From Rubellimicrobium arenae (GTDB lineage: Bacteria > Pseudomonadota > Alphaproteobacteria > Rhodobacterales > Rhodobacteraceae): a stretch of DNA of 64,000 bases. Position numbers and translations under genes: made by a program. The notes beneath the pieces are model-generated. The model searched no databases, was not told the origin of the DNA, and worked only from the letters and a program-made list of their open reading frames with translations. The DNA lies in the NCBI RefSeq assembly GCF_017916275.1, contig NZ_JAFMST010000011.1, forward strand, positions 1 through 64,000, in the 5' to 3' direction. Position 1 is the first letter of the stretch. Each line of letters opens with the position of its first letter. Of the stretch, positions 42,813 through 58,694 are shown piece by piece.

Positions 42813-43567
42813 CCGCCATTGCCCTGCGCGGCCTGAACATCGCCTATGCGGGCACTCCGGTCGTCCGGGATGTCACCTTGGACGTCGCCGAAGGCGAGAG
42901 CTTTGCCCTTGTCGGCGAGAGCGGGTCGGGCAAGTCCACCGTCCTCAAGGCCATCACGGGTCTCGCGCCCGAATGGACCGGATCGATCGAGGTGCTGGGT
43001 CGGCCCGCCGCGCATCACCCGGACCGCAAGTTGGCCCGGGTGGTCCAGATGGTGTTCCAGGACCCCTACGGCTCGCTCCACCCGCGCAAGACGGTCGACG
43101 CCGTCCTGACCGAGGCGCTGGCGATCCACGGGATCGGCGACCGCGACGCGCGGGTCGAGGCGGTGCTGCGGGATGTCGGGCTCGATCGTCGGTTCCGCTT
43201 CCGGTACCCGCACCAGCTCTCGGGCGGGCAGAGGCAGCGGGTCGCCATCGCCCGAGCGCTGGTGCTGGAGCCCCGGATCCTGCTGCTCGATGAGCCGACG
43301 AGCGCGCTGGACGTGAGCGTGCAGGCCGAGATCCTGAACCTGCTCAAGCGGCTCCGGGCCGAGCATCGGCTGACCTATCTCCTGGTCACGCACAACCTGC
43401 CGGTCGTCAGTTTCATGTGCGACAGGGTTGCGATCATGAACCGGGGCCGCGTGGTCGAGATCGCCCCGGCCGCCGCTCTTCACGATGGCGAGTTCCAGGA
43501 CTCTTACTCCCGGCAACTCTATGCCGCGAGCGGGGGAAACTCTCCCATGGAGTCGGCTGGCCGATGA
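42809..43567 (+). CDS. ABC transporter ATPase (DppF/OppF type)
   Basis: 252 residues with Walker A GESGSGKS, Q-loop MVFQDPYGSLHPRKTV, signature LSGGQRQRVAIARAL, Walker B ILLLDEPTSALD and H-loop VTHN. Last gene of the coupled plus-strand set. The C-terminal Fe4S4-like Cys cluster of some OppF proteins is absent and the tail is short. Confidence 0.93.
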   Translation: MTAIALRGLNIAYAGTPVVRDVTLDVAEGESFALVGESGSGKSTVLKAITGLAPEWTGSIEVLGRPAAHHPDRKLARVVQMVFQDPYGSLHPRKTVDAVLTEALAIHGIGDRDARVEAVLRDVGLDRRFRFRYPHQLSGGQRQRVAIARALVLEPRILLLDEPTSALDVSVQAEILNLLKRLRAEHRLTYLLVTHNLPVVSFMCDRVAIMNRGRVVEIAPAAALHDGEFQDSYSRQLYAASGGNSPMESAGR

Positions 43568-43928
43568 CCGAACCCGGTCTGGGTCGCGGTGGCCCATGAA
43601 CCACTGGCGCCGGGGCGGATCTGGCGGCGGACCGGACCAGGAGGCGGGGCCGCACCGCTTCCCGGGCGACGAAGGGCGGGAGATCCGATCACGCTCCGCT
43701 GCGTTACGGCTCGGATCAGGTGACACCTCCGAACATCGAGCTAACCTTCAGGCATGATTGCCAAGTCCTGCCGGTCCGGCCCCTTGACTCAGTTGCTTCC
43801 CAGAGGCGTTGAACGACCGGCCCCTGAACGGCGTTACGCGTTGGCAACCGAAACGCGTCGAGCAGGCCGACGCTCGCTGGTCAGGATTGGGGAAACGGGT
43901 GTCCGGTTGGAAGGGGACGGCGGCGCAC
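43568..43928. other. Intergenic, no supported gene
   Basis: 361 bp upstream of the hybrid kinase. A frame beginning with TTG at 43809 runs into the kinase but its sequence is not PAS-like, so I leave it untranslated. No terminator with a T run or recognisable promoter was found. Confidence 0.4.
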
Positions 43929-46751
43929 ATGAATGAGATCGTTCATCGGCCGCTGGGCGATGTCACGCCTGCTTCGGACGGCAGTGACATGGCGCGCCGC
44001 ATCCGGCAGCACGACTGGGCCACGACGCCGCTTGGCCCACAGGACGGCTGGCCACTGTCCCTGGTCACGCTTGTCGGCGTCATCACGGGATCGAACCAGC
44101 CGATGTTCGTGGCCTGGGGCGCGGATCGCACGCTGATCTACAATGACGCCTATGCCGGCATCTTGGCGCAAAAGCACCCGGCCGCCCTGGGACAGCCGCT
44201 CCTGGAGGTGTGGGACGAGATCCGGGACGATCTCCTGCCCATCGTGGAGCGTGTTTGCGACGGCCATGCCGTCCAGATGGATGACATCGACTTCATCATC
44301 GAACGGAACGGCTACAAGGAGGAGGCGCACTTCGCATTTTCTTATACGCCCGTGCGCGACGGGGCGGGCGGCATCGGCGGCTTCTTCTGCGTCTGCCAGG
44401 AGATCACCAGTCAGGTCCTTGCCGAACGTCGACTGCGCCAGAGCGAGACAAGGCTGCAAGGCATTCTCGACGGCATGGGCGAGGCCTTTGGACTCCTGGA
44501 CCGGGATTTCTGCATCCTGACCTTCAACCAGGCGGCCCTGCAGATCGAATCGCGTCCGCTGAACGAGATCCTTGGGCGGTCTCACTGGGAGGTGTATCCC
44601 GGCTCGGAGAACAGCGAGATCGGACGTCTGCTCCGTCGGGCGATGTCCATGCGTGAGCCGATCGCCTTGGAGCACCGCTACAGTTGGCAGGACGGCACCG
44701 CGCGGTGGCTCGAGACGCGGGCCTATCCGGTGCCCGAGGGGCTGGCGGTGTTCTGGCGCGATGTCACCCGTCGGAAGAACGACGAGGCCGAACGTCACAT
44801 GACCGAGAACGCCCTTCGCGAAAGCGAGGCCCGCTTCCGGCTCATGGCGGACGCCGTGCCGCAGATCGTCTGGATCACCGACCCCGAAGGCCGCACCGAG
44901 TTCTTCAACAAGCAATGGTCGGACTACACCGGCGCGGTCTATGAGCCGACGACCGCCGCCGACATCGCGGCAAGCTTCGTCCACCCGGACGACGCCGTGG
45001 CCACGCTGGACGCCTTCAACGAGGCGCGCGCGACCGGCGGCACCTTCCAAGTCGAGCATCGGATCCGCTCGAAGGCGGGCGACTACCGCTGGTTCCTTGT
45101 GCGCGGCGTGCCCTACCGCGATCCCCGGACCGGCCAGATTGCGCGCTGGTTCGGTGCCTCGGTCGACATCCACGATCGGCGGCAGGCCGAGGCGGAACTG
45201 CGCGCGAGCGAGGAGCGCCTGCGCGAGTTGAACGAATCCCTGGAGGCCCAGGTCGCCGAGCGTACGGCCGAACGCGACCGGATGTGGGAAACCTCGCCCG
45301 ACCTGATGCTGGTGATCGATTTCGAGGGCGTGTTCCGACGGGTCAACCCGGCTTGGACGATGGTTCTGGGGTATGCCCCCGAGGAGTTGATAGGCCACCA
45401 TGTCAACGAGTTCGTCGTGCCGGACGATCACGACGAGACGGTCGAGGCCTATGAGTTCGCGGCCCAAGGAGGGTCGCCACGCCTCATCAATCGGTATCGC
45501 CACAAGGACGGGTCCCTGCGTTGGGTTTCCTGGACGGCGGCGCCCGCCGGGGATCTGACCTATGCGACGGGCCGCGACATCACCTCCGAGAAGGACCGGC
45601 AGACCGAACTGGACTCCGCGCAGGAGCAGCTTCGCCAGAGCCAGAAGATGGAGGCCATGGGCCAGCTGACCGGAGGGGTGGCGCACGACTTCAACAACCT
45701 GCTGACCCCGATCATCGCCAGCCTCGACATGCTCCAGCGCCGCGGAGTGGGAGGCGAGCGCGAACGGCGGCTCATGGACGGAGCCTTGCAATCGGCCGAG
45801 CGGGCCAAGGTCCTCGTGCAGCGCCTTCTGGCCTTCGCGCGACGCCAGCCGCTGCAACCGGGCCCGGTGGACGTGAAGCGCCTCGTGACCGACATGGCCG
45901 GGTTGATCGCCAGCACGTCGGGGCCTCGGGTCGAAGTGCGCGTGGACCTTCCGGACGACATGCCGCCAGCCCTGGCCGATGCCAACCAGCTCGAGATGGC
46001 GCTCCTCAACCTCGCCGTGAACGCCCGCGACGCCATGCCAGACGGAGGCCTGCTGTCCATCTCGGCCGCCCGCGACTCCGTCCGCGAGCCGCGCCATCCG
46101 GCAAAGCTTCGTCTTGGACACTACGTCCGCCTTTCGGTCCGGGACACCGGCACGGGCATGGACCAGGCCACGCTTGCCCGTGCGGTGGAGCCGTTCTTCT
46201 CGACCAAGGGCATCGGACGCGGCACCGGCCTGGGGCTGTCGATGGTGCATGGGTTGGCGTCGCAACTGGGAGGCGGGCTCACGATCTCCAGCCGTCCTGG
46301 GGCGGGCACGACGGTCGACCTTTGGTTGCCCATCAGCGCGGGGGCCATCTTCGAGGAGGGCCGCAGTCACCGTCCGGCGTCGGTCGCGCAGGCGGTCGGC
46401 ACCGTGCTCCTGGTGGATGACGAGGACATCGTGCGGATGAGCACGGCCGACATGCTGACCGACCTTGGCTACGAGATCACCGAAGCGCGTTCGGCCGAAG
46501 AGGCCATGCGCCTGGTGGAGGAGGGGTTCCGGCCCGACCTCGTCGTGACCGATCACCTGATGCCTGGCCTGAGCGGCGTGGACCTGGCCCGTAGTTTCCG
46601 CGCCCGCCTGCCGGGCCTGCCGGTGCTGATCGTGTCGGGCTACGCCGAGATGGACGGGGTCGCGCCCGGCATTGCCCGTCTCAGCAAGCCGTTCCGCGCT
46701 TCGGAACTTGCCAAGAGCCTTGCCGATCTGAGGTCGTCCAGCCCGGCCTGA
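43929..46751 (+). CDS. Four-PAS hybrid sensor histidine kinase
   Basis: 940 residues from the ATG at 43929 (GGAAGGGGA upstream). Four PAS domains: the first (about 25-170) is the type that begins WPLSLVTLVGVITGSNQPMFVAWG and reads a bound ligand; others at about 175-300, 305-430 and 450-570. A short coiled coil (about 415-450) lies between PAS3 and PAS4. HisKA follows with the phospho-site GVAHDFNNLLTPI (585-650), then HATPase (690-800, NLAVNARDAMPDGG, GTGLGLSMVHG) and a receiver (820-935, Asp in LVVTDHLMPGLSG). Cytoplasmic. This core differs from the two paralogous kinases at 27-35 kb (DFNN rather than ELNN). No partner regulator adjoins. Confidence 0.9.
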   Translation: MNEIVHRPLGDVTPASDGSDMARRIRQHDWATTPLGPQDGWPLSLVTLVGVITGSNQPMFVAWGADRTLIYNDAYAGILAQKHPAALGQPLLEVWDEIRDDLLPIVERVCDGHAVQMDDIDFIIERNGYKEEAHFAFSYTPVRDGAGGIGGFFCVCQEITSQVLAERRLRQSETRLQGILDGMGEAFGLLDRDFCILTFNQAALQIESRPLNEILGRSHWEVYPGSENSEIGRLLRRAMSMREPIALEHRYSWQDGTARWLETRAYPVPEGLAVFWRDVTRRKNDEAERHMTENALRESEARFRLMADAVPQIVWITDPEGRTEFFNKQWSDYTGAVYEPTTAADIAASFVHPDDAVATLDAFNEARATGGTFQVEHRIRSKAGDYRWFLVRGVPYRDPRTGQIARWFGASVDIHDRRQAEAELRASEERLRELNESLEAQVAERTAERDRMWETSPDLMLVIDFEGVFRRVNPAWTMVLGYAPEELIGHHVNEFVVPDDHDETVEAYEFAAQGGSPRLINRYRHKDGSLRWVSWTAAPAGDLTYATGRDITSEKDRQTELDSAQEQLRQSQKMEAMGQLTGGVAHDFNNLLTPIIASLDMLQRRGVGGERERRLMDGALQSAERAKVLVQRLLAFARRQPLQPGPVDVKRLVTDMAGLIASTSGPRVEVRVDLPDDMPPALADANQLEMALLNLAVNARDAMPDGGLLSISAARDSVREPRHPAKLRLGHYVRLSVRDTGTGMDQATLARAVEPFFSTKGIGRGTGLGLSMVHGLASQLGGGLTISSRPGAGTTVDLWLPISAGAIFEEGRSHRPASVAQAVGTVLLVDDEDIVRMSTADMLTDLGYEITEARSAEEAMRLVEEGFRPDLVVTDHLMPGLSGVDLARSFRARLPGLPVLIVSGYAEMDGVAPGIARLSKPFRASELAKSLADLRSSSPA

Positions 46752-47173
46752 GGCCGGATGCACACGTTCGCCTTCCTGATCCACTGCGCAGACGGTCGAC
46801 GAGCCGCTGCGGTCTCGCATAGGAATGCCCGGACCGCCGGGGCGACCCAGGAGGCGGGCGCCCGTCCACCATGAAGATGCTGACTGCGGCCTCACCGACG
46901 GGCCTGCAGGACGATCCCCCCAGGCAGGTTCAGTGACGGCCCGCCGGGTTGGCGGCAACGGGGTCAGCGCCTCGGTGGGTCATGCTCCGGTCCCGGCCGG
47001 ACCGAGACGATGCGACGCCCAAGGTAGGTTCACGGCCCGGGTCCAGCCGGAGAAGAAACTCCTACAACCAGCGGCAATTAAACACGACCAATTCTATCGT
47101 GTTTTAGGCGCCCCTGGAGTAGTGTTTCCTCGAACCCCGCAGAACCTGTGCGGACTAAAGCCGAGGCCCCAAC
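46752..47173. other. Intergenic region before the second ABC operon
   Basis: 422 bp. The first 280 bp show nothing of note. The last part is unusually AT-rich and holds the perfect inverted repeat at 47080-47104, so it is the promoter region of the operon that starts at 47174. Confidence 0.55.
47080..47104. promoter_or_regulatory. Perfect 8-bp inverted repeat, candidate operator
   Basis: AAACACGA (47080-47087) and TCGTGTTT (47097-47104), perfectly symmetric with a 9-nt AT-rich spacer, 69 nt before the GTG of the solute-binding protein gene. It stands out in a GC-rich genome. LysR- or TetR-type regulators bind such sites, but no regulator gene is adjacent, so the protein is unknown. Confidence 0.5.
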
Positions 47174-48817
47174 GTGACACGAACCTCCTTGTCCCTGACC
47201 CGCCGAACGCTTCTGGCTTCGCTGGCCGTCATGGCGCTGCCGGCGCGCCGTTCGGTGGCCCTCGAGACCGGCACTCCTGTCCAGGGTGGCACCCTGATCT
47301 ACCTGGAGCAGCAGCCGCATACGCAGCTGTATCCCCCGGCAGGCGGCTTCTATCCCAATTCGGGCGTGCTCAACCAGATCACGGACAAGCTGACCTGGCA
47401 GAACCCGGACACGCTGGAGATCGAGCCCTGGATCGCTGAACGCTGGGAGGTCAGCGACGACCTTCGGCAATACACCTTCCACATCCGACCGGGGGTGACC
47501 TTTTCGGACGGCACGCCGCTGGACGCGAGTGCCGTGGCGCAGAATTTCGACAGCTTCGGCCTAGGCAATCCCGATCGGAACTTCCGTCCTTCGGAGGTCG
47601 TGAACAACTACGACCGTAGCGAGGTGCTTGATCCGCTCACCGTGCGGTTCCACTTCAAGCAGCCCTCGCCGGGATTCCTGCAGGGAACGTCGGTCATCGG
47701 GTCCGGCCTGGTCGCCCCGGCGACGCTGGCGCGCAGCTTCGACGAACTGGGCGATGCGACGCTGGTCGTCGGATCGGGCCCCTTCGTCGCCGCCAGCCAG
47801 ACCACCGGGACCGAACTCATCCTCAGGGTCCGCGAAGACTATGCCTGGGGACCCAAGGAGCTGCCACATCAGGGCCGGGCGCTTCTGGACGAGGTCAGGA
47901 TCCTGATCGTGCTCGAAGATTCGGTGCGCATCGGCGCGCTCCTGTCGGGGCAGGCCGATGTGGTGCGGCAGATCCAGGCCTACGACGAGCCGCAGATCTC
48001 CGCAGCCGGGTTCAACCTCTACGCGCCGCCGACCCGGGGGATCAACAACTCGGTGGTCTTCCGGCCCGACAATCCGCTGGTCGCGGACGTCCGGGTCCGC
48101 CGCGCGCTGCTGCATGGCACCGACACGGCCGAGATCGTGGCGACGCTCTTCTCGGGCAACTATCCACGCGCGACCTCGATCCTGTCGTCTCAGGCGCAGG
48201 GCTACGTGGACCTGAGCGCAAAGCTCGCCCACGACCCCGAACTGGCGGCAAGCCTCCTGGACGAGGCAGGCTGGGCTCTGGGGCCGGACGGCCTGCGGCA
48301 AAAGGATGGGACAGCCCTGGTGCTGACGGCCTATGAGTCACTGCCCCAGCCGCAGAACCGCGCGGCGCTCCAGCTGATCGCGCAGCAATGGGCGCGGCTT
48401 GGCGTGACGCTGAACGTCCTGCCAGGGGATGCCGGCAGCGCCACGGTCGACAACCTCGATCCGGCCAAGACGCCGGTTTCGCCGGCGATGGTAGGCCGGG
48501 CCGATCCGGACGTGATCAAGAGCCAGTACTATCCAGCGAACCGCAACGTCCTTCTCCAGAAGGGTGGGGTGAGCCAGGAGGTCGACAGCTTCGTCGACGA
48601 CCACCTCAACGGCCTTCTCGAGGGGATCGCCTCCGAGATCGACCCCGCGAAGCGTCTCGCGCTCGTGGCCGAGGCGCAGGAGTACGTCGTCGACCAGGCC
48701 TACGCCATTCCGATCTTCGAGGAGCCGCAGGTCTTCGCGAGCGCCCCGCACGTCCATGACGTCGCCTTCGAAGCGGTGGGACGCCCCAGCTTCTATCGCA
48801 CCTGGAAATCCGCCTGA
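47174..48817 (+). CDS. ABC transporter substrate-binding protein, KPN_01854-like family
   Basis: 547 residues from a GTG. The leader carries a twin-arginine-like motif (SLTRRTLLASLAVMALPA), suggesting Tat export. The body is SBP_bac_5-like: FHIRPGVTFSDGTPLDASAVAQNFD, VVGSGPFVAASQTTGTELIL, LDEAGWALGPDGLRQKDGTALVLT. The set of genes behind it (two permeases, fused ATPase, luciferase-like monooxygenase, two CMD/AhpD proteins) is what I know for the KPN_01854 subfamily. The ligand is unknown; it is unlikely to be a plain nutrient peptide given the enzymes. A strong hairpin follows the stop. Confidence 0.88.
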   Translation: MTRTSLSLTRRTLLASLAVMALPARRSVALETGTPVQGGTLIYLEQQPHTQLYPPAGGFYPNSGVLNQITDKLTWQNPDTLEIEPWIAERWEVSDDLRQYTFHIRPGVTFSDGTPLDASAVAQNFDSFGLGNPDRNFRPSEVVNNYDRSEVLDPLTVRFHFKQPSPGFLQGTSVIGSGLVAPATLARSFDELGDATLVVGSGPFVAASQTTGTELILRVREDYAWGPKELPHQGRALLDEVRILIVLEDSVRIGALLSGQADVVRQIQAYDEPQISAAGFNLYAPPTRGINNSVVFRPDNPLVADVRVRRALLHGTDTAEIVATLFSGNYPRATSILSSQAQGYVDLSAKLAHDPELAASLLDEAGWALGPDGLRQKDGTALVLTAYESLPQPQNRAALQLIAQQWARLGVTLNVLPGDAGSATVDNLDPAKTPVSPAMVGRADPDVIKSQYYPANRNVLLQKGGVSQEVDSFVDDHLNGLLEGIASEIDPAKRLALVAEAQEYVVDQAYAIPIFEEPQVFASAPHVHDVAFEAVGRPSFYRTWKSA

Positions 48818-48833
48818 CGATCATCGGGCGGTC

Positions 48834-48878
48834 GGTGCCCGCTTCGAGGGGTCTCCTCCCTGACTCGAAGCGGGCACC
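48834..48878 (+). terminator. Strong hairpin between binding-protein and permease genes
   Basis: A perfect 15-bp stem: GGTGCCCGCTTCGAG (48834-48848) with CTCGAAGCGGGCACC (48864-48878), 15-nt loop. It has no T run and sits inside the operon. Such hairpins after a binding-protein gene usually stabilise the upstream mRNA and cut read-through, so the binding protein is made in excess over the channel. Confidence 0.7.
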
Positions 48879-48902
48879 TGGTTCGCCCCGAAGGAGAAGG
48901 CC

Positions 48903-49847
48903 ATGACGACCATCGTACTCCATCGCCTGGGGCAAGCCGTGCTGGTCCTGTGGGCCGCGTTCACGCTGTCCTTCCTGCTCGTGCAGATGATGCCCGGCGA
49001 CGCGGTCCTGATCCGTTTCCTCGACCCCAACATGGGGATGACCCCCGAGGACATCGCCCGCATCCGGGCCTTCTACGGGTCCGACCAGCCCGTCGTTCAG
49101 CAATACGTCTTCACGGCCTGGAGCTTTCTGCGGGGCGATTTCGGCTATTCGGTTCAGTCCGGCGTGCCGGTTTGGGACGAGATCGCGCTGAACCTGCCGC
49201 CGACCCTGACGCTCGCCGGGCTGGCCGTCCTGGTGGCGGGAGCCCTTGCCGTCGTGCTGGCCTGGGCGGCGACGCTGTCGCCGTTCGGGTGGTTGCGCCA
49301 CGCCCTGGGCGCTCTGCCTGCGGTGATGATCTCCCTCCCGGTCTTCTGGATCGGCATCATGCTGGTCCAGGTCGTGTCCTTCCGGCTGGGCTGGGTGTCC
49401 GTGATTGCCCCCGGCCCGTGGGAACGACTGGTCCTGCCAGTCCTGACGCTGGCGCTGCCGATCGCAGCCCCGCTCGCACGCGTGCTGCTGAGCAGCATCG
49501 AACGCATCGAGCGCCAGGCGTTCGTGACCGTGGCGCGTGCCAAGGGCCTGTCGCGCCAGGCGACACTGTGGCGCCACGTCCTGGGCAATGCGGCGCTCCC
49601 CGTGCTGGCGGTTGGCGGCCTGCTCCTGGGCGAGCTGGTCGCCGGGGCGGTGGTGACCGAGACGGTCTTCGGCATGAACGGCCTGGGGCGGCTCGCCGAG
49701 CGGTCGGTGCGAACCCAGGACATCGCGGTCCTGCAGGCGATCGTCGTGATCTCGGCGCTGGGCTTCGTGCTCGTCAATCTCGCGGTCGACCTTGTGTCGA
49801 TCGTTCTGGACCCGCGGATCCGCCGCACACGGGAGGCCCTCGCATGA
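48903..49847 (+). CDS. ABC transporter permease (DppB type) of the monooxygenase cluster
   Basis: 314 residues with RBS GAAGGAGAAGG. Six membrane helices and the EAA loop FVTVARAKGLSRQATLWRHVLGNA (near 200-224). LVQMMPGDAVLIRFLDPNMGM and GDFGYSVQSGVPV are DppB-type. The stop overlaps the next permease (ATGA). Confidence 0.92.
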   Translation: MTTIVLHRLGQAVLVLWAAFTLSFLLVQMMPGDAVLIRFLDPNMGMTPEDIARIRAFYGSDQPVVQQYVFTAWSFLRGDFGYSVQSGVPVWDEIALNLPPTLTLAGLAVLVAGALAVVLAWAATLSPFGWLRHALGALPAVMISLPVFWIGIMLVQVVSFRLGWVSVIAPGPWERLVLPVLTLALPIAAPLARVLLSSIERIERQAFVTVARAKGLSRQATLWRHVLGNAALPVLAVGGLLLGELVAGAVVTETVFGMNGLGRLAERSVRTQDIAVLQAIVVISALGFVLVNLAVDLVSIVLDPRIRRTREALA

Positions 49848-50695
49848 CGTCGCGCGATCTCGATGCTCCTCTCCTGACCACCTCGCGGCGGTTCTCGCCA
49901 CGGCTGCCGCGATTGGGGCTCGTTCCGGCATGGCTGGTGCTGATCGTGGTGCTGGCCTGGGCGGTGGGACCGACGCTCTTCACCGGACAGAGCGCCACGA
50001 CCGGCCTGCCGGGCGCGCAGCTCCAGGCGCCCGGGCTCGACCATCCGCTCGGAACCGACGAGCTTGGCCGCGACCTCCTCGCCCGGATCATCCACGGAGC
50101 CCGGCACACTCTGGCAGGGGCTACCGTCGCCGTCGGCGTGGGCCTTCTTGCCGGGAGCCTGATTGGTCTGGTCGCAGGCGCCGTGGGCGGGCGAACCGAT
50201 GCGATCGTCATGCGCGCAGTCGACGTGCTGCTGGCGATCCCCGCGCTGCTTCTGTCGCTGTCCCTCATCATCATCCTTGGCTTCGGTCCGATCCAGGTGG
50301 CTCTGGCAGTCGGTGTCACGTCCGTCGCGACCTTCGCACGGCTGATCAGGTCCGAGGTGCTGACGGTGCGCCAGGCCGACTACGTCGAGGCGGCGTTCGG
50401 CAGCGGCGGAACCTTCGCGCGGGTGCTCTGGCGGCACGTCCTGCCCAACTCGGTGACGTCGGTGCTGGCCTTCGCGGCCATCCAGTCCGGCTGGGCCATC
50501 CTTCAGATCTCCACCCTGGGCTTCCTTGGTTACGGGGCGCCGCCACCCACGCCCGAATGGGGCCTGATGATCGCGGAAGGGCGCAATTACATGACGACCT
50601 CCTGGTGGCTCACGCTCTTCCCGGGCCTGGCCGTGATCGCGGTCGTCCTCGCGGTCAACGCCGTCGGCCGATCGATGCTGAGGGCTGACGCATGA
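49844..50695 (+). CDS. ABC transporter permease (DppC type) of the monooxygenase cluster
   Basis: 283 residues, six helices. DHPLGTDELGRDLLARIIHGARHTL and the EAA loop YVEAAFGSGGTFARVLWRHVLPN are DppC signatures, and GFLGYGAPPPTPEWGLMIAEGR marks the C-terminal part. It overlaps both neighbours by 4 nt. Confidence 0.92.
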   Translation: MTSRDLDAPLLTTSRRFSPRLPRLGLVPAWLVLIVVLAWAVGPTLFTGQSATTGLPGAQLQAPGLDHPLGTDELGRDLLARIIHGARHTLAGATVAVGVGLLAGSLIGLVAGAVGGRTDAIVMRAVDVLLAIPALLLSLSLIIILGFGPIQVALAVGVTSVATFARLIRSEVLTVRQADYVEAAFGSGGTFARVLWRHVLPNSVTSVLAFAAIQSGWAILQISTLGFLGYGAPPPTPEWGLMIAEGRNYMTTSWWLTLFPGLAVIAVVLAVNAVGRSMLRADA

Positions 50696-52350
50696 CCCTA
50701 TCGCGCCCCACCCCCCAGCCACCGGAATCCGGTCTCGAGATCCGGGATCTGTCGATGTCCTACGTGACTCTTGGCCAGGCCCGGCCCGTGCTCCACGGCC
50801 TGAGCCTGTCCGTGAAGCCGGGCGAGGTGCTGGCCCTGGTCGGAGAGTCCGGCTCGGGCAAGACGACGACGGCCCAGGCGATCCTGGGGCTCCTTCCCGC
50901 GAATGCCCGGATCGACGGGGGCTCCGTTCATCTTGGACAGCAATCGCTGCTTGGCCTGTCGGACCGGGCCTGGATGCAGCTTCGCGGGCGACGCATCGGG
51001 TTGATCCCGCAAGACCCCGGCTCTTCGCTCAACCCGGTCCGGACCGTCGGCGCGCAGCTGGCCGAAGTCTTTGTCGTCCATGGCCTCGAGACGCGCTGGT
51101 CGGTGCGGGAGCGGGTGCTGGACGCGCTGGCCGAGGTAGGCTTGCCCGATCCCGCGCGCCACCATGACCAGTACCCGCACGAGCTGTCGGGCGGGATGCG
51201 CCAAAGGGTGCTCATCGCCATGGCGCTGGCGCTCAGGCCCGAGCTCGTGATTGCCGACGAACCCACAAGCGCGCTCGATGCCACGGTGCAACGGCACGTC
51301 CTGGACATGATCGACCGCCTGCGGGCCGAGCGGGGGACGGCCGTCCTCCTCGTCACCCATGACCTCGCCATGGCCGGCGATCGGGCGGACCGCATCGCCG
51401 TGCTGCGCAACGGGCGTCTGGAAGAGCAGGGCTGCGTCACCGCCGTCCTCGCGCATCCCGTGAGCGCCTACACCCGCCGCCTCCTGTCCGATATCCCGTC
51501 GCTCGCGCCGGCCCGCAGCCCTGCAATCCTCCGCGAAAGGAGGCGCGATGCCGCCGTGACGGTCGAGAACCTCGTCCAACGGTTCGCGACGCGGGGCAGG
51601 GGGACGATCCAGGCCCTGGACGGCGTGTCCTTCGAGGTCGCCCGGGGGACCACCCACGCCATCGTGGGCGAAAGCGGCTCCGGCAAGACGACCGCCATGC
51701 GGGCCATCGTCGGCCTCCAGCGACCGGCATCGGGACGCATCCTCGTCGGCGGCGAGGAGGTCACCGGGCTGAGGGGCGAAGACCTGAGGCAGTTCCGGCG
51801 CAGGGTGCAGCTCGTTTACCAGAACCCGTTTGCCTCGCTGGATCCGCGCCAGACGGTGCGGGCCATCGTGGAGGAACCCCTCCTCAATTTCGACCCTGTC
51901 CCCCGGGCCGAACGCGAGCGGGCCGCGGCTCAGGTGCTCGAGCGTGTGGCCTTGCCGGACGAGGTCTGGGACCGTCGTCCGGTCGCGCTGTCCGGCGGCC
52001 AGCGCCAGCGCGTCGCCATCGCGCGTGCCCTGGTGCTGAAGCCCGAGGTCCTGGTCCTGGACGAAGCGGTCTCGGCCCTGGACGTGACTGTCCAGGCCCA
52101 GATTCTCCGGCTTCTCGACGAACTCCAGCGTGACCTGGGGCTGACCTACCTCTTTGTTTCGCACGACCTTTCGGTGGTGCGGGCCATCGCGGACAGCGTT
52201 TCGGTGCTCCATCGCGGGCGCGTGGTGGACGATGGCCCGGCACACCGGGTCTTCGCCGCCCCAAGGAGCGAGCACACCCGCGCCCTCATCGCCGCCATCC
52301 CGGGCGGCCAACCCCGTTCGGCCAGGACCCTTGAAGGAGCGACCTCATGA
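50692..52350 (+). CDS. Double-ATPase ABC protein (DppD-DppF fusion)
   Basis: 552 residues with two complete nucleotide-binding domains in one chain. Half 1: Walker A GESGSGKTT near 52, signature LSGGMRQR, Walker B LVIADEPTSALD. Half 2: Walker A GESGSGKTT near 324, signature LSGGQRQRVAIARAL, Walker B VLVLDEAVSALD (Ala in place of the usual Pro after DE). Each half ends with an H-loop VTHD or VSHD. It supplies both ATPases of the importer, unlike the first ABC system in this window, which has two genes. It overlaps the monooxygenase gene by 4 nt. Confidence 0.93.
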   Translation: MTLSRPTPQPPESGLEIRDLSMSYVTLGQARPVLHGLSLSVKPGEVLALVGESGSGKTTTAQAILGLLPANARIDGGSVHLGQQSLLGLSDRAWMQLRGRRIGLIPQDPGSSLNPVRTVGAQLAEVFVVHGLETRWSVRERVLDALAEVGLPDPARHHDQYPHELSGGMRQRVLIAMALALRPELVIADEPTSALDATVQRHVLDMIDRLRAERGTAVLLVTHDLAMAGDRADRIAVLRNGRLEEQGCVTAVLAHPVSAYTRRLLSDIPSLAPARSPAILRERRRDAAVTVENLVQRFATRGRGTIQALDGVSFEVARGTTHAIVGESGSGKTTAMRAIVGLQRPASGRILVGGEEVTGLRGEDLRQFRRRVQLVYQNPFASLDPRQTVRAIVEEPLLNFDPVPRAERERAAAQVLERVALPDEVWDRRPVALSGGQRQRVAIARALVLKPEVLVLDEAVSALDVTVQAQILRLLDELQRDLGLTYLFVSHDLSVVRAIADSVSVLHRGRVVDDGPAHRVFAAPRSEHTRALIAAIPGGQPRSARTLEGATS

Positions 52351-53378
52351 CCTCGAAGCGCATCGGCTTCTTCTCGCGTCTCCTCGACGACGCGCCGCCC
52401 GGCGAGCGCTACCGGATGGGCGTGGAGCAGGTTCTCAGGGCCGAGGCGCTCGGCTTCGACAGCTTCTGGATCGCGCAGCATCACTTCGACGGGACCGAGG
52501 GCGGAATGCCGTCGCCGCTCCTGTTTCTGTCGCACCTCGCGGCACGGACCTCGTGGATACGTCTCGGGACCGGGATCGTGACCTTGCCGATGGAGCAGCC
52601 GCTTCGGGTCGCCGAAGACGCGGCGGTGCTCGATGCGCTGTCGAACGGGCGGCTGGAGATCGGCCTCGGCTCCGGGGGAACCCCCACCTCCTTCGCGGCC
52701 TTCGGACTTGACCACGGCGCCCGGTCCGAGGTCTTCGACCGGCATCTGGCTGTGCTGCGGTCCGCCTGGGCCGGCAAGGACGTAGGCGGCGGCAACCTCC
52801 TGTATCCTGCCGCGCCCGGACTGAATGACCGGGTCTGGCAGGCCACCTTCTCGGTTCGGGGCGGCGAACGCGCCGGGCGGGACGGCGATGGCCTCTTGCT
52901 GTCGCGCACTCAGCCCCGCCCGCCGGGCGAGCCGCTCCTGCCGCTGCACGAGATCCAGCTGCCGATCGTCGACGCCTACCACGCCGCGCTGCCGCCCGGA
53001 CGGGCGCCGCGCATCCTGGCCTCCCGCAGCGTGTTCGTCGCCGACAGCCGGGCCGATGCAAGGACCTTTGCAGAGGCCGGCCTGCGCCGGATCGCCGAAC
53101 GGTTCCGCCGTGCCGGCCACGAACTCCCGGGCACGAGCATCGACGACCTGATCCGCGCCTTCGATACCCATTGCGGCACTCCGGACGAGGTCGCCGAGAG
53201 CCTGTCGCGGGATGCCACCCTGGCGCACGCCACCGATGTGGCGGTGCAGGTCCATTCCGTCGACCCGCCTCACCGGTTCATCCTCCGCTCGCTGGAACTG
53301 TTCGCCCAGCAAGTGGCTCCGGCGCTCGGATGGACCGCCCTACCAGCCCGGCCACGCATGGCCGCGCTCCGCCCCTGA
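52347..53378 (+). CDS. Luciferase-like flavin monooxygenase, KPN_01858-like family
   Basis: 343 residues with a bacterial-luciferase TIM barrel: GFDSFWIAQHHFDGTEGGMPSPLLFLSHLAARTS in part, IRLGTGIVTLPMEQPLRVAEDAAVLD and LEIGLGSGG are the conserved FMN and substrate regions. Such enzymes use reduced FMN and oxygen, often to break C-S, C-N or C-C bonds or to make esters. Coupling by a 4-nt overlap to the ATPase gene says it acts on the imported compound (inference). No dedicated flavin reductase is in the window. Confidence 0.88.
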   Translation: MTSKRIGFFSRLLDDAPPGERYRMGVEQVLRAEALGFDSFWIAQHHFDGTEGGMPSPLLFLSHLAARTSWIRLGTGIVTLPMEQPLRVAEDAAVLDALSNGRLEIGLGSGGTPTSFAAFGLDHGARSEVFDRHLAVLRSAWAGKDVGGGNLLYPAAPGLNDRVWQATFSVRGGERAGRDGDGLLLSRTQPRPPGEPLLPLHEIQLPIVDAYHAALPPGRAPRILASRSVFVADSRADARTFAEAGLRRIAERFRRAGHELPGTSIDDLIRAFDTHCGTPDEVAESLSRDATLAHATDVAVQVHSVDPPHRFILRSLELFAQQVAPALGWTALPARPRMAALRP

Positions 53379-53390
53379 AAGGACCTGACC

Positions 53391-53990
53391 ATGACCGATC
53401 TCATCACCCGGCTCTCGGGGCTGTCCGTGGGCTCGCCCGAGGACCGGGCCTTCGCGAACCGCGCCGAAGCCCGCCGCCAGTCCGAGGACAGCTATCTGCT
53501 GCTGCTTCACCCCGCCGATTCCGGCCCCGTGTCGCTGGTCGAGCGGCGGGCCGTCGCAGCCTTCGTCGCGGTGCTGCATCAGCAGCCCGAGACGGCGGCT
53601 CATTACCGCGCCCTCCTTGAGGGGACCGACTCCGTCCTGGCACCTACGGTCCTTCGGCTGGCCGAGAGCGCGCGCGGCCCGGGTCCCTGGGGTCGCTACC
53701 CATCCGGTCCGCTGTCACATGAAGACCAGCCCGGGGCGCCGTTCCGGCTGACGCGCGAACAACGCGACGCCATCGGCCTTCGCCTCGCCGCCGCCCTGGA
53801 GCATGCGCATCTCCTGACCTTGCACCCGCGGGACGCCTCCAGGGACGCCCTGCAGGCCCTCTTGGACGCGGGGTGGACGACGCCGGGCATCGTCACGCTG
53901 TCCCAGCTCGTGGCCTTTCTTGCGTTTCAGATCCGTGTCGTGGCCGGCCTGACCGTCCTTCAGGCCGCCCGTTCCGCTGTTCCCGCCTGA
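53391..53990 (+). CDS. CMD-domain protein, Avi_7170-like family
   Basis: 199 residues with RBS AAGGACC. A helical carboxymuconolactone-decarboxylase-type fold (VERRAVAAFVAVLHQQPETAAHYRALLEG, LTREQRDAIGLRLAAALEHAHLLTLHPRD in part) but without the CxxC pair of AhpD, so it is not an ordinary peroxidase. It stands between the monooxygenase and the CxxC-bearing homologue, suggesting a heteromer or a sequential step (inference). Confidence 0.8.
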   Translation: MTDLITRLSGLSVGSPEDRAFANRAEARRQSEDSYLLLLHPADSGPVSLVERRAVAAFVAVLHQQPETAAHYRALLEGTDSVLAPTVLRLAESARGPGPWGRYPSGPLSHEDQPGAPFRLTREQRDAIGLRLAAALEHAHLLTLHPRDASRDALQALLDAGWTTPGIVTLSQLVAFLAFQIRVVAGLTVLQAARSAVPA

Positions 53991-54002
53991 TCGGAGATCC
54001 GC

Positions 54003-54608
54003 ATGACCGACACCGTCCTGAGCCATCCCGGCAACCATGAACCCGACCGTTTCACCACGGACAACCTCGGCTGGCTGCCGTGGCTGCCGCCGTTGGCGGA
54101 GGAGGAGCTGACCCAACGCCATCGCGACGGGCTGGCAGATCCCTCTCGCGCGAAGTCTCCTTATTTCATGCTGCTGGCGCATGATCCCGAAGTCTTAGGC
54201 GCACGCACCCGGGTCGACCGCGACATCTTCTACAACACGCAGGGCGGGCTCCCGCGGGCCGACCGCGAGCTGGCCGCGACCGCTGTCTCGCGGGTGAACG
54301 GCTGCATCTTCTGCGCCTCGGTGCATTCACGCTTCGCCGCGCGCCACTCCAGACGCGAGACGGACGTGCAGGCACTTCTGGACCATGGCCCGACGGTCCC
54401 GCTTGGCGAGCGCTGGGGTGCCATCGTCCGCTCGGCGACAGCCCTGACCGCCACGCCCCCGGCCCTTGCCCCGGAGAACGTGGACGACCTGAACCGCGAG
54501 GGCCTGACCGCTGAAGAGCAGGTGGACCTGGTCCTTGCCTCGGCCTTCTTCCACTGGGCGAACCGGCTGATGCTCTCGCTGGGCGAGCCCACAGCGGCCG
54601 GAGCCTGA
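54003..54608 (+). CDS. AhpD-like peroxidase-family protein, Avi_7169-like family
   Basis: 201 residues with a GGAG ribosome site. The CMD/AhpD fold carries the redox motif: RVNGCIFCASVHSRFAARH, with C-x2-C followed by His three residues later, as in AhpD active sites (near 99-106). It may reduce a peroxide made by the monooxygenase step or take part in the reaction itself. Spacing to the previous gene is 12 nt, so it is the same operon. Confidence 0.85.
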   Translation: MTDTVLSHPGNHEPDRFTTDNLGWLPWLPPLAEEELTQRHRDGLADPSRAKSPYFMLLAHDPEVLGARTRVDRDIFYNTQGGLPRADRELAATAVSRVNGCIFCASVHSRFAARHSRRETDVQALLDHGPTVPLGERWGAIVRSATALTATPPALAPENVDDLNREGLTAEEQVDLVLASAFFHWANRLMLSLGEPTAAGA

Positions 54609-54618
54609 GGGCGCGAGG

Positions 54619-55356
54619 ATGGCACTGGATCGTCAGAGCCCAGGGCAGGAGGGGCAGGTCCGGGTGCGATTCCACCTTCGGTCGGGGCCGTTCTGCCCGC
54701 TCGCGCAGCGCGTCATGGTGGCCCTTGCGGTGTGTGGAGCCTCTTGGTCGAACGATCCGACCGCAGCGGATGGCGAAGCTCCCACCCTCGTCGTCACGCG
54801 TCCAAGGGTGCCTCGGCTGGTGGAACGGGATCATCTTGCCATGCTCGATCTGGTCGAGGCGTTCCGTCCTGGGCCGAACCGCCGGCCCGGCACCCTCACC
54901 GGGCCTGAGACGACACGGAGGATCATCGACCTGGGCGTGTCGGTGCAGTCGGGCCTTTCGGCCGTGACGCGGGCGACGGAGTCGAACGAGCACGACATGG
55001 CCATCTTTCGCCTCCGCGATCGGCTCCAGCGGCTCGAGGATCTGTTGCCGCCTGACGTCGGAGTCCCCGGGGCCGTGCTGCACCGGCACGAGGTCGTGCT
55101 GGGGCCGACCCTCTGGCGGTTGAGGGTGCTCGACCAGCACTGCGAGACTTACCTGATGACAGGCCTGCCCCGGATCGCGGCTTGGGAGCGGACGATCACC
55201 GGCCATGCCGCGATGCGGGCCGTGTTCCCCGCCGACGCCGAGCGGATCTACCTTTCCACGCTCAGGAGGCGCGGCGCCGTCCTCCTGTCGATCGCCGACG
55301 CGGCGACATGGCGCCTCCTGATCGGCCATTCAGGACAGCTTCGCGGCGCGGGCTGA
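54619..55356 (+). CDS. Glutathione S-transferase-like protein
   Basis: 245 residues, ATG 10 nt after the previous stop, so part of the operon. The N-terminus has a thioredoxin-like start (RFHLRSGPFCPLAQRVMVALAVCG; a SGPFCPLAQR active-site style stretch). The C-terminal half is helical (DMAIFRLRDRLQRLEDLL, LVTRPRVPRLVERD before it). The middle is divergent from standard GSTs and the cis-Pro motif is only approximate (RPRVPRLV). It could conjugate or detoxify a product of the pathway. Confidence 0.65.
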   Translation: MALDRQSPGQEGQVRVRFHLRSGPFCPLAQRVMVALAVCGASWSNDPTAADGEAPTLVVTRPRVPRLVERDHLAMLDLVEAFRPGPNRRPGTLTGPETTRRIIDLGVSVQSGLSAVTRATESNEHDMAIFRLRDRLQRLEDLLPPDVGVPGAVLHRHEVVLGPTLWRLRVLDQHCETYLMTGLPRIAAWERTITGHAAMRAVFPADAERIYLSTLRRRGAVLLSIADAATWRLLIGHSGQLRGAG

Positions 55357-55504
55357 GCCCTCTGCAGGTTAGCGTTCAGGCCGACGGCGCCCGAAGGGGG
55401 CTGCCTCGAAGGACAACGGAGGATCTGTGGAGCCGATACGTCCGAAAGAGAGCTTGGCCGCCGAACCATGACCAAACCACGGGCCGCCAGCGACTCCGCC
55501 CTCG

Positions 55505-56125
55505 TCAGGACCACGGGGAGCGCGGCGCGCTCCAGCCGCGCTGGACGCTCACGACCCTCAGGATGAAGGCGGCGACGACCCCGATGACGGCCAGGACGGG
55601 CTCCGGACCACCGACCTGCCGGCCGATCACCGGAATTGCGGCCCCGACCAGGGCGGCCAGGGCATAGATCTCTTCCCGAAGGACCCGAGGCACCTCGGCG
55701 ACCAGGAGATCGCGGGCGGCTCCGCCTCCGACTGCGGTCATGACCCCGAGCAGGATGCTCGCCACGGGGTCGAGCCCGAATTCCATGGCCTTTCGGCAAC
55801 CGGTCACGGCGAAAAGTCCAAGGCCCAGGGCGTCGAACAGCATCACGGGCTTTCTCAGCCGGTTCAGCAGTGGATGGAAGAAGAACGCGACCAGGCCCGC
55901 CCCGAACGCCGCGAGAAGGTAGCGCTCGTCGACCAGAGACGCTGCAGGCGTCGCGCCCAGCAGCGAGTCCCGCAGCATCCCGCCCGCCAGAGCCGCCGCC
56001 GCGGCAAGGGTCAGGACGCCGACGATGTCGAGGCCACGGCGCACCGCCAGCGTACCGCCACTCAGCCCGAAAACGAAGGTGCCAAGAAGATCGAGAGCAA
56101 TGAGCAGGGACGACGGGTCCGTCAT
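55505..56125 (-). CDS. TRIC/UPF0126-family membrane channel protein
   Basis: 206 residues with about seven membrane helices and two internal repeats, each with the glycine-rich motif: ALAGGMLRDSLLG near 45-58 and AVGGGAARDLLVAEVP near 130-146. This GGGxxRD pattern defines UPF0126/TRIC proteins, trimeric cation channels in prokaryotes. It converges on the ABC/monooxygenase operon and is not obviously linked to it. Confidence 0.9.
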   Translation of the reverse strand: MTDPSSLLIALDLLGTFVFGLSGGTLAVRRGLDIVGVLTLAAAAALAGGMLRDSLLGATPAASLVDERYLLAAFGAGLVAFFFHPLLNRLRKPVMLFDALGLGLFAVTGCRKAMEFGLDPVASILLGVMTAVGGGAARDLLVAEVPRVLREEIYALAALVGAAIPVIGRQVGGPEPVLAVIGVVAAFILRVVSVQRGWSAPRSPWS

Positions 56126-56327
56126 TGGGGCCCGGCCCCTTGGTCAGAATCCCGCCGGAGCCTCCTGTCAGCCGCTGCCTCCGGGAAAGGGACGCAAGCC
56201 GTCCGGGTGTTGTCCGGTCGACCGGCCTGATCGATCACAAGGGCGCGGCTGACTCGTGGCACGGACCTGACCGCGCGGTTCAATCCGGGCCTTGTGTCGC
56301 CGCCTATGCTGCCAGTTCTGGTCGTCA

Positions 56328-57305
56328 TCACGTGATTCCGGTCTGCGTGGAGCGCCAGGCCTCCGGAGGCATCCCTTCGGCCTCCCGGAAGGTCCGCGTC
56401 AGGTGCGAGGTATCGCAGAATCCGGTCTCAGCGGCGATCTGGGCCACGGACCGGCCTGTGCGGCTCAGCAGGTGCTTGGCCTGGGCGAGACGGATGCGGC
56501 GATCCGCCTCCTTGGGCGTCACTCCGAGCGCGTCCCCGAAATGACGCTCCAGCTTCCGTCGGCTCACGCCCAGCCGTTCCGCCAGATCGGTCACCCGCAG
56601 GGGCGCCTCCATGGACTGCTGCATGGCGAGAAGCGCCCGCCGGACGAGCGGCTCCTTGGTTGTCAGCTCGAGCGGAAGGCCGGGTTGCGGACGCTCGGCC
56701 CCCAGGGCCTCGTCGATGATCATGATGGCAAGGCTCTTGCGTGCCGCCGCCGGGCCGATGTGCCGATCCACGAGAAAGGCGGCCAGATGCGCCGAGGAGG
56801 CGCCGCCAGAGCAGGACAGCCGATCCCGATCGACGACGAAGATCTGGTCCGACACCGGCACGAGCCCATCGAACTCCGTCAGGAAGTCGTCATGGTGGAA
56901 CCAGCTCACGCAGGCCTTGTAGCCGTTGAGCAGCCCGGCCCGGTGCAGGATGAAGGTGCCGGTGCAGACGCCAACCAGGGGAACGCCGGCCTCGGCGGCG
57001 CGGCGCAGGAATGCGGTGTGGTCGGGGTGCAGGCGCTCGATCTCGTCCATGAGGCCGCCCACCACGACGATGTAATCGAAGCGGGTCGGGTCCCCGAGCC
57101 GCTCCTCGGGATGGATGCGGATGCCGCAGCTCGACTCCACCGGGTCCATGGTGGGTGACAGCACACGCCAGCGGCACAGGATGGGGCGGGACCGGTCGCC
57201 TTCGTCGGCCGCAAGCCGCAGCACGTCCACGAAGTTCGCGAAGGCGCAGAGCGTGAACCGGGGCGCCAGGATGAAGCCGATGCGGAGGCGCGGGGCAGGG
57301 GTCAT
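56328..57305 (-). CDS. GlxA-family AraC-type regulator, GbdR-like
   Basis: 325 residues from the ATG at 57305. N-terminal DJ-1/PfpI-like domain (about 5-180; [46 protein letters not shown] in part) and two AraC helix-turn-helix units (about 215-310; [40 protein letters not shown]). GbdR and related regulators of this type activate glycine-betaine/dimethylglycine/sarcosine breakdown. It is divergent from soxBDAG with 124 bp between the starts, which fits that role (inference). Confidence 0.87.
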
Positions 57306-57429
57306 CTTGCTTGGTCCGGGTTCGAGAACGGTGTCCCAAAGATACAACGATTCTGCCGCAGGAATACAGGTGAGCGGCAACGGCTGTGACATAATGCGAC
57401 GATCCGGCTGGCCGCCACCGAGAGCCCCC

Positions 57430-58683
57430 ATGACCCATTACTCCGCCTTTTCCCTCCTCAAGAACGCCCTCTCCGGCCACAAGAACTGGCGCGAGCAGTG
57501 GCCCGACGCCCAGCCCAAGGCCGAATACGACGTGATCATCGTCGGCGCGGGCGGGCATGGACTCGGCGCGGCCTACTACCTCGCCAAGGAGCATGGCATC
57601 ACCAACGTCGCGGTGATCGACAAGGGCTGGCTGGGCGGCGGAAATACGGGGCGCAACACCACCATCATCCGGTCGAACTACCTGTATGACGAAAGCGCCA
57701 AGCTTTACGACCACGCGCTCGACCTTTGGGAGGACCTGAGCCAGGACCTCAATTACAACGTCATGTACTCCAAGCGCGGCGTCATGATGCTCGCGCACAA
57801 CGTCCACGACATCCAGAGCTTCAAGCGCCACATCCACTCGAACCGGCTGAACGGCGTGGATAACCGCTGGCTCACGCCCGAAGAGGCCAAGGAGTTCTGC
57901 CCGCCGCTCAACATCTCCAAGGACGCGCGCTACCCGGTCATGGGCGCGGCGCTGCAGATGCGGGCGGGGACGGCGCGGCACGACGCGGTGGCCTGGGGCT
58001 ATGCCCGCGCCGCCGCCGCGCGGGGCGTCGACATCATCCAGAACTGCCCGGTCATCGCGATCCGGCGCGGGCCCGACGGCGCCGTGCAGGGCGTGGACAC
58101 CGCCAAGGGCTTCATTAAGGCCAAGAAGGTCGCCGTCTCGACCGCCGGGAACACCTCGGTCGTCATGCAATCGGCCGGGCTCAGGATGCCGCTCGAAAGC
58201 TATCCGCTGCAGGCGCTGGTCTCCGAGCCGGTGAAGCCGGTCTTCCCCTGCGTGGTGATGTCGAACACCGTGCACGCCTATATCAGCCAGTCCGACAAGG
58301 GCGAGCTGGTGATCGGCTCGGGCACCGACCAGTATGTCAGCTACTCCCAGCGCGGCGGCCTGCCGCTGATCGAGCATACCGTCGCGGCCATCTGCGAGGT
58401 GTTCCCGATCTTCTCGCGGATGCGGATGCTGCGGAAATGGGGTGGCATCGTGGACGTGACGCCCGACCGCTCGCCCATCCTGGGCAAGCTGCCGGTCAAG
58501 GGGCTTTACGTGAACTGCGGCTGGGGCACCGGCGGCTTCAAGGCCACGCCGGGCGCCGGGCACCTCCTCGCCTGGACCGTCGCCAAGGACGAGCCGCACC
58601 CGATCAACGCGCCCTTCACGCTCGAACGTTTCACCACCGGTCGGCTGATCGACGAAGCCGCCGCCGCCGCCGTCGCGCACTAA
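57430..58683 (+). CDS. soxB: Sarcosine oxidase beta subunit
   Basis: 417 residues, the usual length. The FAD-binding glycine motif [20 protein letters not shown] is at 33-52 and [20 protein letters not shown] follows. His184 in [14 protein letters not shown] fits the covalent FMN site of the beta subunit. It forms the demethylating core that oxidises sarcosine to glycine, with methylene transferred to tetrahydrofolate by the alpha subunit. First gene of soxBDAG. Confidence 0.96.
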
Positions 58684-58694
58684 AGGACACGCCC

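Follow-up and report, generated by a model that had tools for sequence, protein, structure and literature searches.

Layout and family membership of the operon

We analysed a stretch of 64,000 nucleotides (nt) of Rubellimicrobium arenae DNA (contig NZ_JAFMST010000011.1, positions 1 to 64,000; hereafter the window), focusing on an operon in which an ATP-binding cassette (ABC) importer is encoded together with a flavin monooxygenase, two AhpD-related proteins and a protein resembling glutathione S-transferases (GST). We propose that this operon is, on balance, probably an organosulfur-scavenging module. Open reading frame (ORF) calling placed eight co-directional plus-strand ORFs at 47174-55356, separated by 85, -4, -4, -4, 12, 12 and 10 nt. 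This bears out the original prediction of eight genes that overlap or lie a few nucleotides apart (-4 to 12 nt) after an internal hairpin. None of the eight is fused to another, and the earlier wording "fused in one operon" can only mean that they are co-located. The features are as follows.

47080-47104, no strand: perfect palindrome AAACACGA-N9-TCGTGTTT with 8-bp arms, candidate operator
47174-48817, plus: periplasmic substrate-binding protein (SBP) of the SBP_bac_5 fold, TIGR04028 (profile matches)
48834-48878, plus: 15-bp perfect inverted repeat between the SBP and permease genes
48903-49847, plus: ABC permease 1, DppB/NikB type (BPD_transp_1)
49844-50695, plus: ABC permease 2, DppC/NikC type (profile matches)
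50692-52350, plus: double ABC ATPase, two ATPase domains in one protein (two ABC_tran stretches)
52347-53378, plus: luciferase-like monooxygenase (LLM), TIGR04027, homologue of PDB 8K74
53391-53990, plus: CMD protein, TIGR04029, AhpD-fold (probable), cysteine-free
54003-54608, plus: AhpD-like dithiol protein (AHP), TIGR04030, with E89, C101xxC104 and H108
54619-55356, plus: orphan, divergent GST/SspA-like protein

The four family names given earlier were confirmed, each protein scoring above the curated cut-off of its model: 819 bits for the SBP against TIGR04028 (cut-off 468.5), 537.2 bits for the LLM against TIGR04027 (412.9), 166 bits for CMD against TIGR04029 (100.75) and 255.1 bits for AHP against TIGR04030 (233.15). 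NCBI lists these models as hypothetical equivalogs. The LLM holds a Bac_luciferase domain (PF00296, 153.6 bits, cut-off 27.9) and fails the TIGR03860 cut-off (23.5 bits, cut-off 279.7); neither SsuD (TIGR03565) nor SfnG (TIGR04021) is among the best 25 of the 29 families that match it. As judged by eye from the translation, the N-terminus of the SBP resembles a twin-arginine signal.

The original prediction began at 47080, which is the first base of the palindrome. This element lies 70-94 nt 5' of the first start codon, occurs once in the window (chance expectation 0.04 at no more than 3 mismatches) and is possibly an operator. No palindrome was common to 14 printed upstream regions (the window's and those of 13 relatives, with start codons of the relatives estimated from alignment; exact arms of at least 7, 260 nt). 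The internal hairpin was correctly described as well, being a perfect 15-bp stem; it was not predicted as a terminator, and possibly sets the ratio of SBP to permease expression. A riboswitch or other structured RNA was considered and rejected, with no Rfam family matching over 46700-56200 at E<=1, and composition gave no sign of a recent foreign origin (G+C 0.693 in the operon, 0.684 in the window). Upstream of the operon, a second, more distant peptide-type ABC importer is encoded at 40133-43546, with permeases and ATPases 29-45% identical to those of the operon; 3' of it, a large gene at 43809-46751 resembles a PAS/receiver histidine kinase, again judging its translation by eye.

Conserved residues and recurrence of the gene set

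Gene content and order, conserved residues, the probable CMD fold, the recurrence of the set and the sulfur-related neighbours of some relatives were all computed directly. AHP residues E89, C101, C104 and H108 are retained in 28/28 aligned sequences. Glu, Cys-x-x-Cys and His together form what we take to be the AhpD active-site motif, which AHP matches and CMD, having no Cys, does not; cysteine is absent from CMD in 27 of the 28 sequences aligned. An AlphaFold model of CMD, built from a three-row alignment (mean predicted local distance difference test score, pLDDT, 71.7), found AhpD-fold chains as its best PDB matches (Foldseek probability 1.00, TM-score ~0.5-0.6, best E 4.8e-4). Judging from this model, CMD is probably an AhpD-fold protein without a thiol site. 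The earlier claim of two AhpD-fold proteins therefore stands for AHP on its conserved motif, and for CMD as a probable fold that carries no Cys.

The survey of gene neighbourhoods that the original prediction had proposed defined a seven-gene core. Among 55 loci, collected by similarity to the LLM or AHP and hence not a frequency sample, the first seven genes stand in the window's order in 29 (counted from the table; 11 of them Microvirga), and the GST-like gene in none. The identical order recurs in Alphaproteobacteria, Enterobacterales and Actinomycetota, and is that of Allorhizobium ampelinum S4, which carries the Avi_ reference locus. The set also occurs in parts: in the six loci of genus g144, the LLM-CMD-AHP order is kept without the peptide-type importer and is followed by a Liv-type importer, and one locus (L128) combines importer, CMD and AHP without the LLM.

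The order of CMD and AHP was counted over 57 loci, namely the window, 52 of the 55 surveyed (three distant ones omitted) and four later finds. CMD precedes AHP in 51/51 loci holding both, and the two share a single reading frame in 12 of these: four Enterobacterales plasmids, six genomes of family f49 (taken to be Enterobacteriaceae), L123 and L127 (order of Prescottella). Of the six other loci, one has AHP only, two have CMD only and three have neither, one of these at a contig end. Such recurrent fusion suggests a joint function for CMD and AHP.

Several loci carry further genes. In Erwinia, Pantoea, Rhizobium BT04 and two further genomes, the AHP region is closely followed by a VOC gene (L077:14186-15031, L079:13265-14110, L086:12262-13233, L114 and L118; the L086 protein is a Glyoxalase_3), and an M20 amidohydrolase gene stands between the two in L079 and L118. 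Both were considered as core members and rejected as recurrent without being universal, VOC occurring at these five loci and M20 at L079, L118 and L138, with one more M20 gene in a control region (L150). On a Burkholderia stagnalis plasmid (L082), five tandem LLM genes, two of whose products are 41-42% identical to the window's LLM, lie with a TonB receptor gene, an SfnB-family gene and a peptide-type importer.

Few genomes hold the set. The TIGR04027 cut-off was passed by a single genome, the window's, among 120 sampled from its own family, by 8 of 297 in the order of G154 and by 1 of 119 in the order of G337 (G337 itself); TIGR04030 was passed by 15 of 398 genomes of a phylum sample, the window's genome included. 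The plasmid collection held 126 records with an LLM relative at E<=1e-40, chiefly from Pantoea, Rhizobium, Ensifer, Erwinia and Sinorhizobium. With so few genomes passing and so many plasmid records, the operon is patchy in distribution and often carried on large plasmids.

The original prediction knew of no established substrate. One has in fact been published: the closest solved structure to the window's LLM is PDB 8K74 (phmmer E 3.6e-121), PCX02514 of Klebsiella sp. PCX, an enzyme reported to cleave poly(acrylic acid) (PMC11354265). The LLM might accordingly degrade polycarboxylates, whether poly(acrylic acid) or a natural oligocarboxylate that it mimics, with the operon serving carbon supply or detoxification. 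The purified protein with NADPH lowers the molecular weight of the polymer, and five site mutants (R10A, R125A, S186A, R187A and H253A) are weaker (PMC11354265). The window's LLM is a close homologue in which R11, R126, S186 and R187, identical in 23/23 aligned sequences, are kept; the fifth proposed site, H253, is not conserved and is F in the window. The reported kcat is 0.00214 s-1, and the enzyme requires NADPH, FMNH2 (reduced flavin mononucleotide) being ineffective, at odds with its class (PMC11354265); a long polymer should moreover not pass a peptide-type importer. With this low rate, this cofactor and a polymer as substrate, poly(acrylic acid) cleavage is unlikely to be the physiological role, and we consider polycarboxylate breakdown as the purpose of the operon very unlikely. 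We take the activity as evidence for an anion-binding pocket and not for a natural role; from the alignment, the conserved pocket arginines would suit an anionic substrate. The prediction thus needs amending in that a substrate is on record, one that is probably not physiological, and the evidence favours an organosulfur compound.

Sulfur links among relatives and the GST-like family

The Corynebacterium glutamicum genome passes the TIGR04030 and TIGR04029 cut-offs. Its cg2674-cg2678 genes encode a CMD-annotated protein and a peptide-type ABC importer with a duplicated ATPase; cg2674, cg2675, cg2677 and cg2678 form one operon with McbR as predicted regulator, and are induced at pH 6 alongside methionine and cysteine genes (PMC2807442). 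In a cysR mutant, moreover, transcription of McbR-regulon genes, cg2678-74 among them, is lowered (PMC2580772). The sulfur-regulon membership of such relatives is taken from these papers; from its annotation and operon, cg2674 is probably the protein that matches both TIGR04029 and TIGR04030, a CMD-AHP fusion.

Genomic neighbours point in the same direction for some relatives. Flanking the A. ampelinum S4 locus are genes for two proteins that match SfnB best (below cut-off), for an LLM whose best match is SsuD, followed by SfnG (below cut-offs), and for an ABC system with a taurine-type annotation. In genus g144, a MetQ-like gene precedes LLM-CMD-AHP in five of the six loci; L120 has MetQ-like, SsuA-like and NtaA/DmoA-type genes as neighbours, and in G1121, the neighbours of CMD and AHP are a gene resembling cysteine desulfurases (below cut-off) and, in convergent orientation, an LLM gene of the NtaA/DmoA type.

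As a control, 17 cluster loci were compared, over a panel of sulfur-acquisition genes, with 34 regions located 60 kb from them in their own genomes; this comparison did not take in eight AHP loci of low score (L121-L125 and L129-L131). Panel matches were found at 6/17 cluster loci (four of them of genus g144; three of 11 genera) versus 1/34 controls, the sole control match being to a query taken from a cluster locus. Restricted to queries from outside the LLM clusters (L137, L138 and L139), the counts are 6/17 versus 0/34. The Fisher value, 0.012, comes from comparing genera with regions, the one control match being omitted. We regard this comparison as support, not proof.

Neither Pfam nor NCBIfam gave a match for the GST-like protein itself, and its resemblance in the PDB to SspA, which has a GST fold, is weak (E 0.002); a single-sequence AlphaFold model (mean pLDDT 37) was not used. 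Homologues were found in four Paracoccus yeei plasmid records (plasmid search, one record opened) and among genomes of the window's own family, where a search with the protein gave five hits in 248 genomes and a profile search 14 in 394, the window's genome included in both. By score, the family members are G000, G1008, G1128, G1240 and G1255 (at least 71 bits), and the nine other rows of the profile search score 54.4 bits or less. Six of these nine were fetched; one of them, G023, and likewise G036 are ordinary GSTs by Pfam. Within the family, the L138 member (G1008) reaches GST_C_2 (27.3 bits, cut-off 24.9), and the position of the window's Cys26 is Cys in two and Ser in two of four aligned members.

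In each of the five other loci examined (P. yeei, G1008, G1128, G1240 and G1255), the GST-like gene adjoins a serine O-acetyltransferase-like gene, and in three of the five (G1008, G1240 and G1255), CMD is encoded beside or near it. The window is the only member without an adjoining acetyltransferase gene, the best match elsewhere in its genome being 38% identical over part of the query. L137-L139 supplied panel queries and hence are not independent evidence for a sulfur link; G1240 and G1255 were fetched after the sulfur idea had been written down, and both fit. Sulfur-panel genes are absent from all seven loci of lower-scoring GST homologues (the six fetched and G036).

In G1008 (L138), the order is an LLM-like gene (TIGR04027 104 bits, below cut-off), CMD, the GST-like gene, then genes for a serine acetyltransferase-like protein, a taurine-type binding protein, an ATPase and a permease; genes for two binding proteins of amino-acid type and for an M20 amidohydrolase lie upstream. 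In G1240 (L190:6660-16396, that is G1240:C9, minus strand), all genes lie on the same strand and encode in turn the shell of a family 2A encapsulin, the cysteine desulfurase that is its cargo, CMD (after a gap of 335 nt; 57% identity to the CMD of the window), AHP, an O-acetylhomoserine/serine sulfhydrylase, the GST-like protein, a serine acetyltransferase-like protein, a taurine-type binding protein and, last, an ATPase-like stretch. No encapsulin 2A match was obtained in the window's genome. In L139 (G1128:C24), the GST-like gene lies 2 nt from a divergent serine acetyltransferase-like gene, taking the ORFs as called; MetN/MetQ-like, SsuA-like, SsuD (over cut-off) and choline-dehydrogenase-like genes surround it.

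The original prediction called the GST-like gene a possible local addition. It is local in that none of the 55 surveyed loci holds it, but seems not to have been added at random: its neighbourhoods suggest a small orphan family linked to sulfur. The association of CMD and this orphan with a serine acetyltransferase and a sulfur-handling encapsulin is an unexpected lead.

Several observations weigh against an organosulfur role. Some loci had already been viewed when the panel was put together, the numbers are small, and the DmoA, MetQ2, SfnB1, SfnB2, SsuD2 and TauA1 queries come from cluster loci. No panel gene was found at 11 of the 17 control-matched loci, at any of 12 Microvirga loci, at nine of ten Enterobacterales/family f49 loci or in positions 44001-64000 of the window; of 27 further cluster loci, which had no matched controls, five gave a match, one of them (L078) being a query source. 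In G1121, the binding protein next to the LLM of NtaA/DmoA type scores above the cut-off of TIGR03427, a putative urea model. C. glutamicum has no LLM over the TIGR04027 cut-off, and its cg2675-cg2678 genes are reported to be under the control of HrrA, a heme regulator, as well (PMC9491836). That PCX02514 is reported to act on poly(acrylic acid), and to do so without flavin, counts here as well, and no flavin reductase gene is found among the eight. The AHP of L190 lacks C104 and H108, and L138 and L191 have CMD without AHP; the redox chemistry of AHP is therefore not universal. Finally, the Paracoccus denitrificans copy of the operon adjoins sarcosine and folate genes.

This last copy bears on another explanation, in which the operon would import and oxidise a nitrogenous or methylated compound (an amine, a betaine or an opine-like chelator) as a nitrogen or carbon source, the AhpD pair removing leaked peroxide. 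On plasmid 1 of P. denitrificans PD1222 (L074, 13458-17209), a reduced operon copy comprises permease 2 (74% identical to the window's), a short ATPase stretch, LLM, CMD and AHP; no SBP or permease 1 was detected. Upstream of it lie genes for a GlxA-type regulator and sarcosine oxidase, together with folD and purU. In the window too there are sarcosine oxidase-like genes, 3' of the operon (57115-58683 and onward), and these cluster with their P. denitrificans counterparts; they are preceded by a minus-strand gene at 56328-57431 whose translation, by eye, resembles a GlxA-type regulator. Beyond its own family, the SBP is nearest to NikA and to opine and peptide binders, which speaks for this explanation. 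The sarcosine oxidase neighbourhood was noticed in the window's genome and P. denitrificans only, and the C. glutamicum regulon and several relatives are linked to sulfur. On this evidence, a nitrogenous substrate seems unlikely to us.

The importer could also carry a metal or metallophore, nickel- or staphylopine-like, aided by accessory redox enzymes and adjusted to iron or heme status. Nickel permease models give the two permeases their highest scores, none of which reaches the cut-off, and the NikD and NikE cut-offs are cleared by the double ATPase; siderophore genes lie near the Pantoea vagans locus. KPN_01858 is raised in iron-limited Klebsiella (PMC7194016), and HrrA control of cg2675-2678 would fit too. 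That same Klebsiella list includes TauC (PMC7194016), which counts against this explanation and speaks for the sulfur reading. The NikD and NikE passes of the double ATPase sum two domains, and dipeptide models were passed as well. A nickel importer was rejected, since the NikA, NikB and NikC models stay below their cut-offs though NikD and NikE are passed; TIGR04028 is far above its own. To our knowledge, a flavin monooxygenase is part of no known metallophore uptake system, and we count this against the explanation, which we hold to be the least probable of those weighed here.

A proposed route and its known counterparts

Returning to the organosulfur reading, the order anticipated earlier, import followed by cleavage with O2 and flavin and then by product handling, remains a fair one. 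The SBP, the permeases and the double ATPase would import an organosulfur compound that is small, probably anionic and similar to a peptide or an amino acid. The LLM, supplied with FMNH2 by a reductase encoded elsewhere, would break its C-S bond with O2, and CMD and AHP, as a single unit, would process either the oxidised sulfur product or peroxide that arises en route. More specifically, the dithiol of AHP, recharged by the lipoyl system, may reduce a sulfenic acid to the thiol. The GST-like protein could be a helper, thiol carrier or adaptor, common to serine O-acetyltransferase loci, where the acetyltransferase would provide the acceptor that turns released sulfur into cysteine. We infer the substrate class, the C-S cleavage, the sulfenic acid reduction and the roles of CMD and the GST-like protein.

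The template for this sequence, from import through C-S cleavage and CMD/AHP reduction to cysteine, is provided by three published routes. YxeK splits N-acetyl-S-(2-succino)cysteine into N-acetylcysteine and oxaloacetate (PMC9706529), CmoJ cleavage of S-alkylcysteine sulfoxides yields a sulfenic acid in need of reduction (PMC10863075), and C. glutamicum AhpD2, which we infer to be cg2674, regenerates peroxidases with electrons from Lpd/SucB/NADH (PMC10460364, a paper about another gene). In Rhizobium sp. BT04 (L086:13286-15930), dihydrolipoyl dehydrogenase and lipoyl acyltransferase genes adjoin the operon on the opposite strand, and it is from Lpd/SucB that AhpD2 is reported to draw its electrons.

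A broader version, which we put forward tentatively and consider rather doubtful, makes CMD, usually with AHP, a sulfur-handling unit plugged into several importers and oxygenases, AHP acting as a reductase of small-molecule sulfenic acids or persulfides. Its partners would be a TIGR04027 LLM with a peptide- or Liv-type importer, a TIGR04027-like LLM with a taurine-type one, or no LLM at all. The released sulfur, kept thiol-safe with the aid of the GST-like protein, would go to cysteine synthesis from O-acetylserine and, in one lineage, also to an encapsulin/cysteine-desulfurase store. A sulfenic-acid or persulfide reductase role was not met for AhpD proteins in the literature consulted.

If true, a sulfur role would explain the presence of the operon on rhizobial and Pantoea megaplasmids and would give AhpD-fold proteins a place in sulfur assimilation; it would also open the way to direct growth and enzyme tests. 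The gene set is already known by name, and the function proposed here is not stated in the literature found: searches with the locus tags returned a proteomics mention only, those with the four model names nothing, and the 8K74 code the polymer-degradation paper, while the available part of a Gordonia transcriptome study (PMC7661421) held nothing matching this operon.

Compared with the TIGR04027-04030 set (KPN_01854, KPN_01858, Avi_7169 and Avi_7170), the window passes all four curated models, keeps the SBP-permease-permease-ATPase-LLM-CMD-AHP order and adds the GST-like gene, with CMD and AHP as separate genes instead of the fusion seen at 12 of 51 loci. With PCX02514 (PDB 8K74), the window's LLM shares four of the five proposed active-site residues; that enzyme is reported as an NADPH-dependent poly(acrylic acid) cleaver, and the available sections of the paper mention neither an operon nor an importer (PMC11354265). 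SsuD and SfnG, the alkanesulfonate and dimethylsulfone monooxygenases, belong to the luciferase-like family too, and some homologous loci have genes of this kind, or relatives of them, nearby; SsuD and SfnG differ from the window's LLM, whose best-matching families, as described above, include neither.

The C. glutamicum cg2678-cg2674 operon has the same peptide-type ABC importer with a duplicated ATPase and a CMD/AhpD protein, and belongs to a sulfur regulon; it differs in having no TIGR04027 LLM over cut-off. For family 2A encapsulin operons, serine O-acetyltransferase has been listed among the most enriched accessories (PMC8346489); the word "alkylhydroperoxidase" is absent from the main text of that paper, in which AhpD and CMD were not searched for, and PMC8049743, searched with other words only, gave nothing bearing on the matter. 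Whereas L190 combines encapsulin, desulfurase, CMD, AHP, the GST-like protein and serine acetyltransferase, the window's genome is without an encapsulin match.

The nearest parallels in function are the Bacillus subtilis yxe/scm system for S-(2-succino)cysteine (PMC9706529) and CmoO/CmoJ (PMC10863075), which likewise bring together an importer, a flavin monooxygenase and tailoring enzymes to recover cysteine. The yxe components listed in the available part of PMC9706529 include no AhpD/CMD pair. The yxe/scm system differs further in that the window's eight genes include no acetyltransferase or deacetylase, and in that the window's LLM is of TIGR04027 and below the TIGR03860 cut-off. M20 amidohydrolases, the family to which YxeP presumably belongs, are encoded near some relatives of the window's operon (L079, L118 and L138). 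We conclude that the operon, if our reading is right, would be a variant of known organosulfur scavenging.

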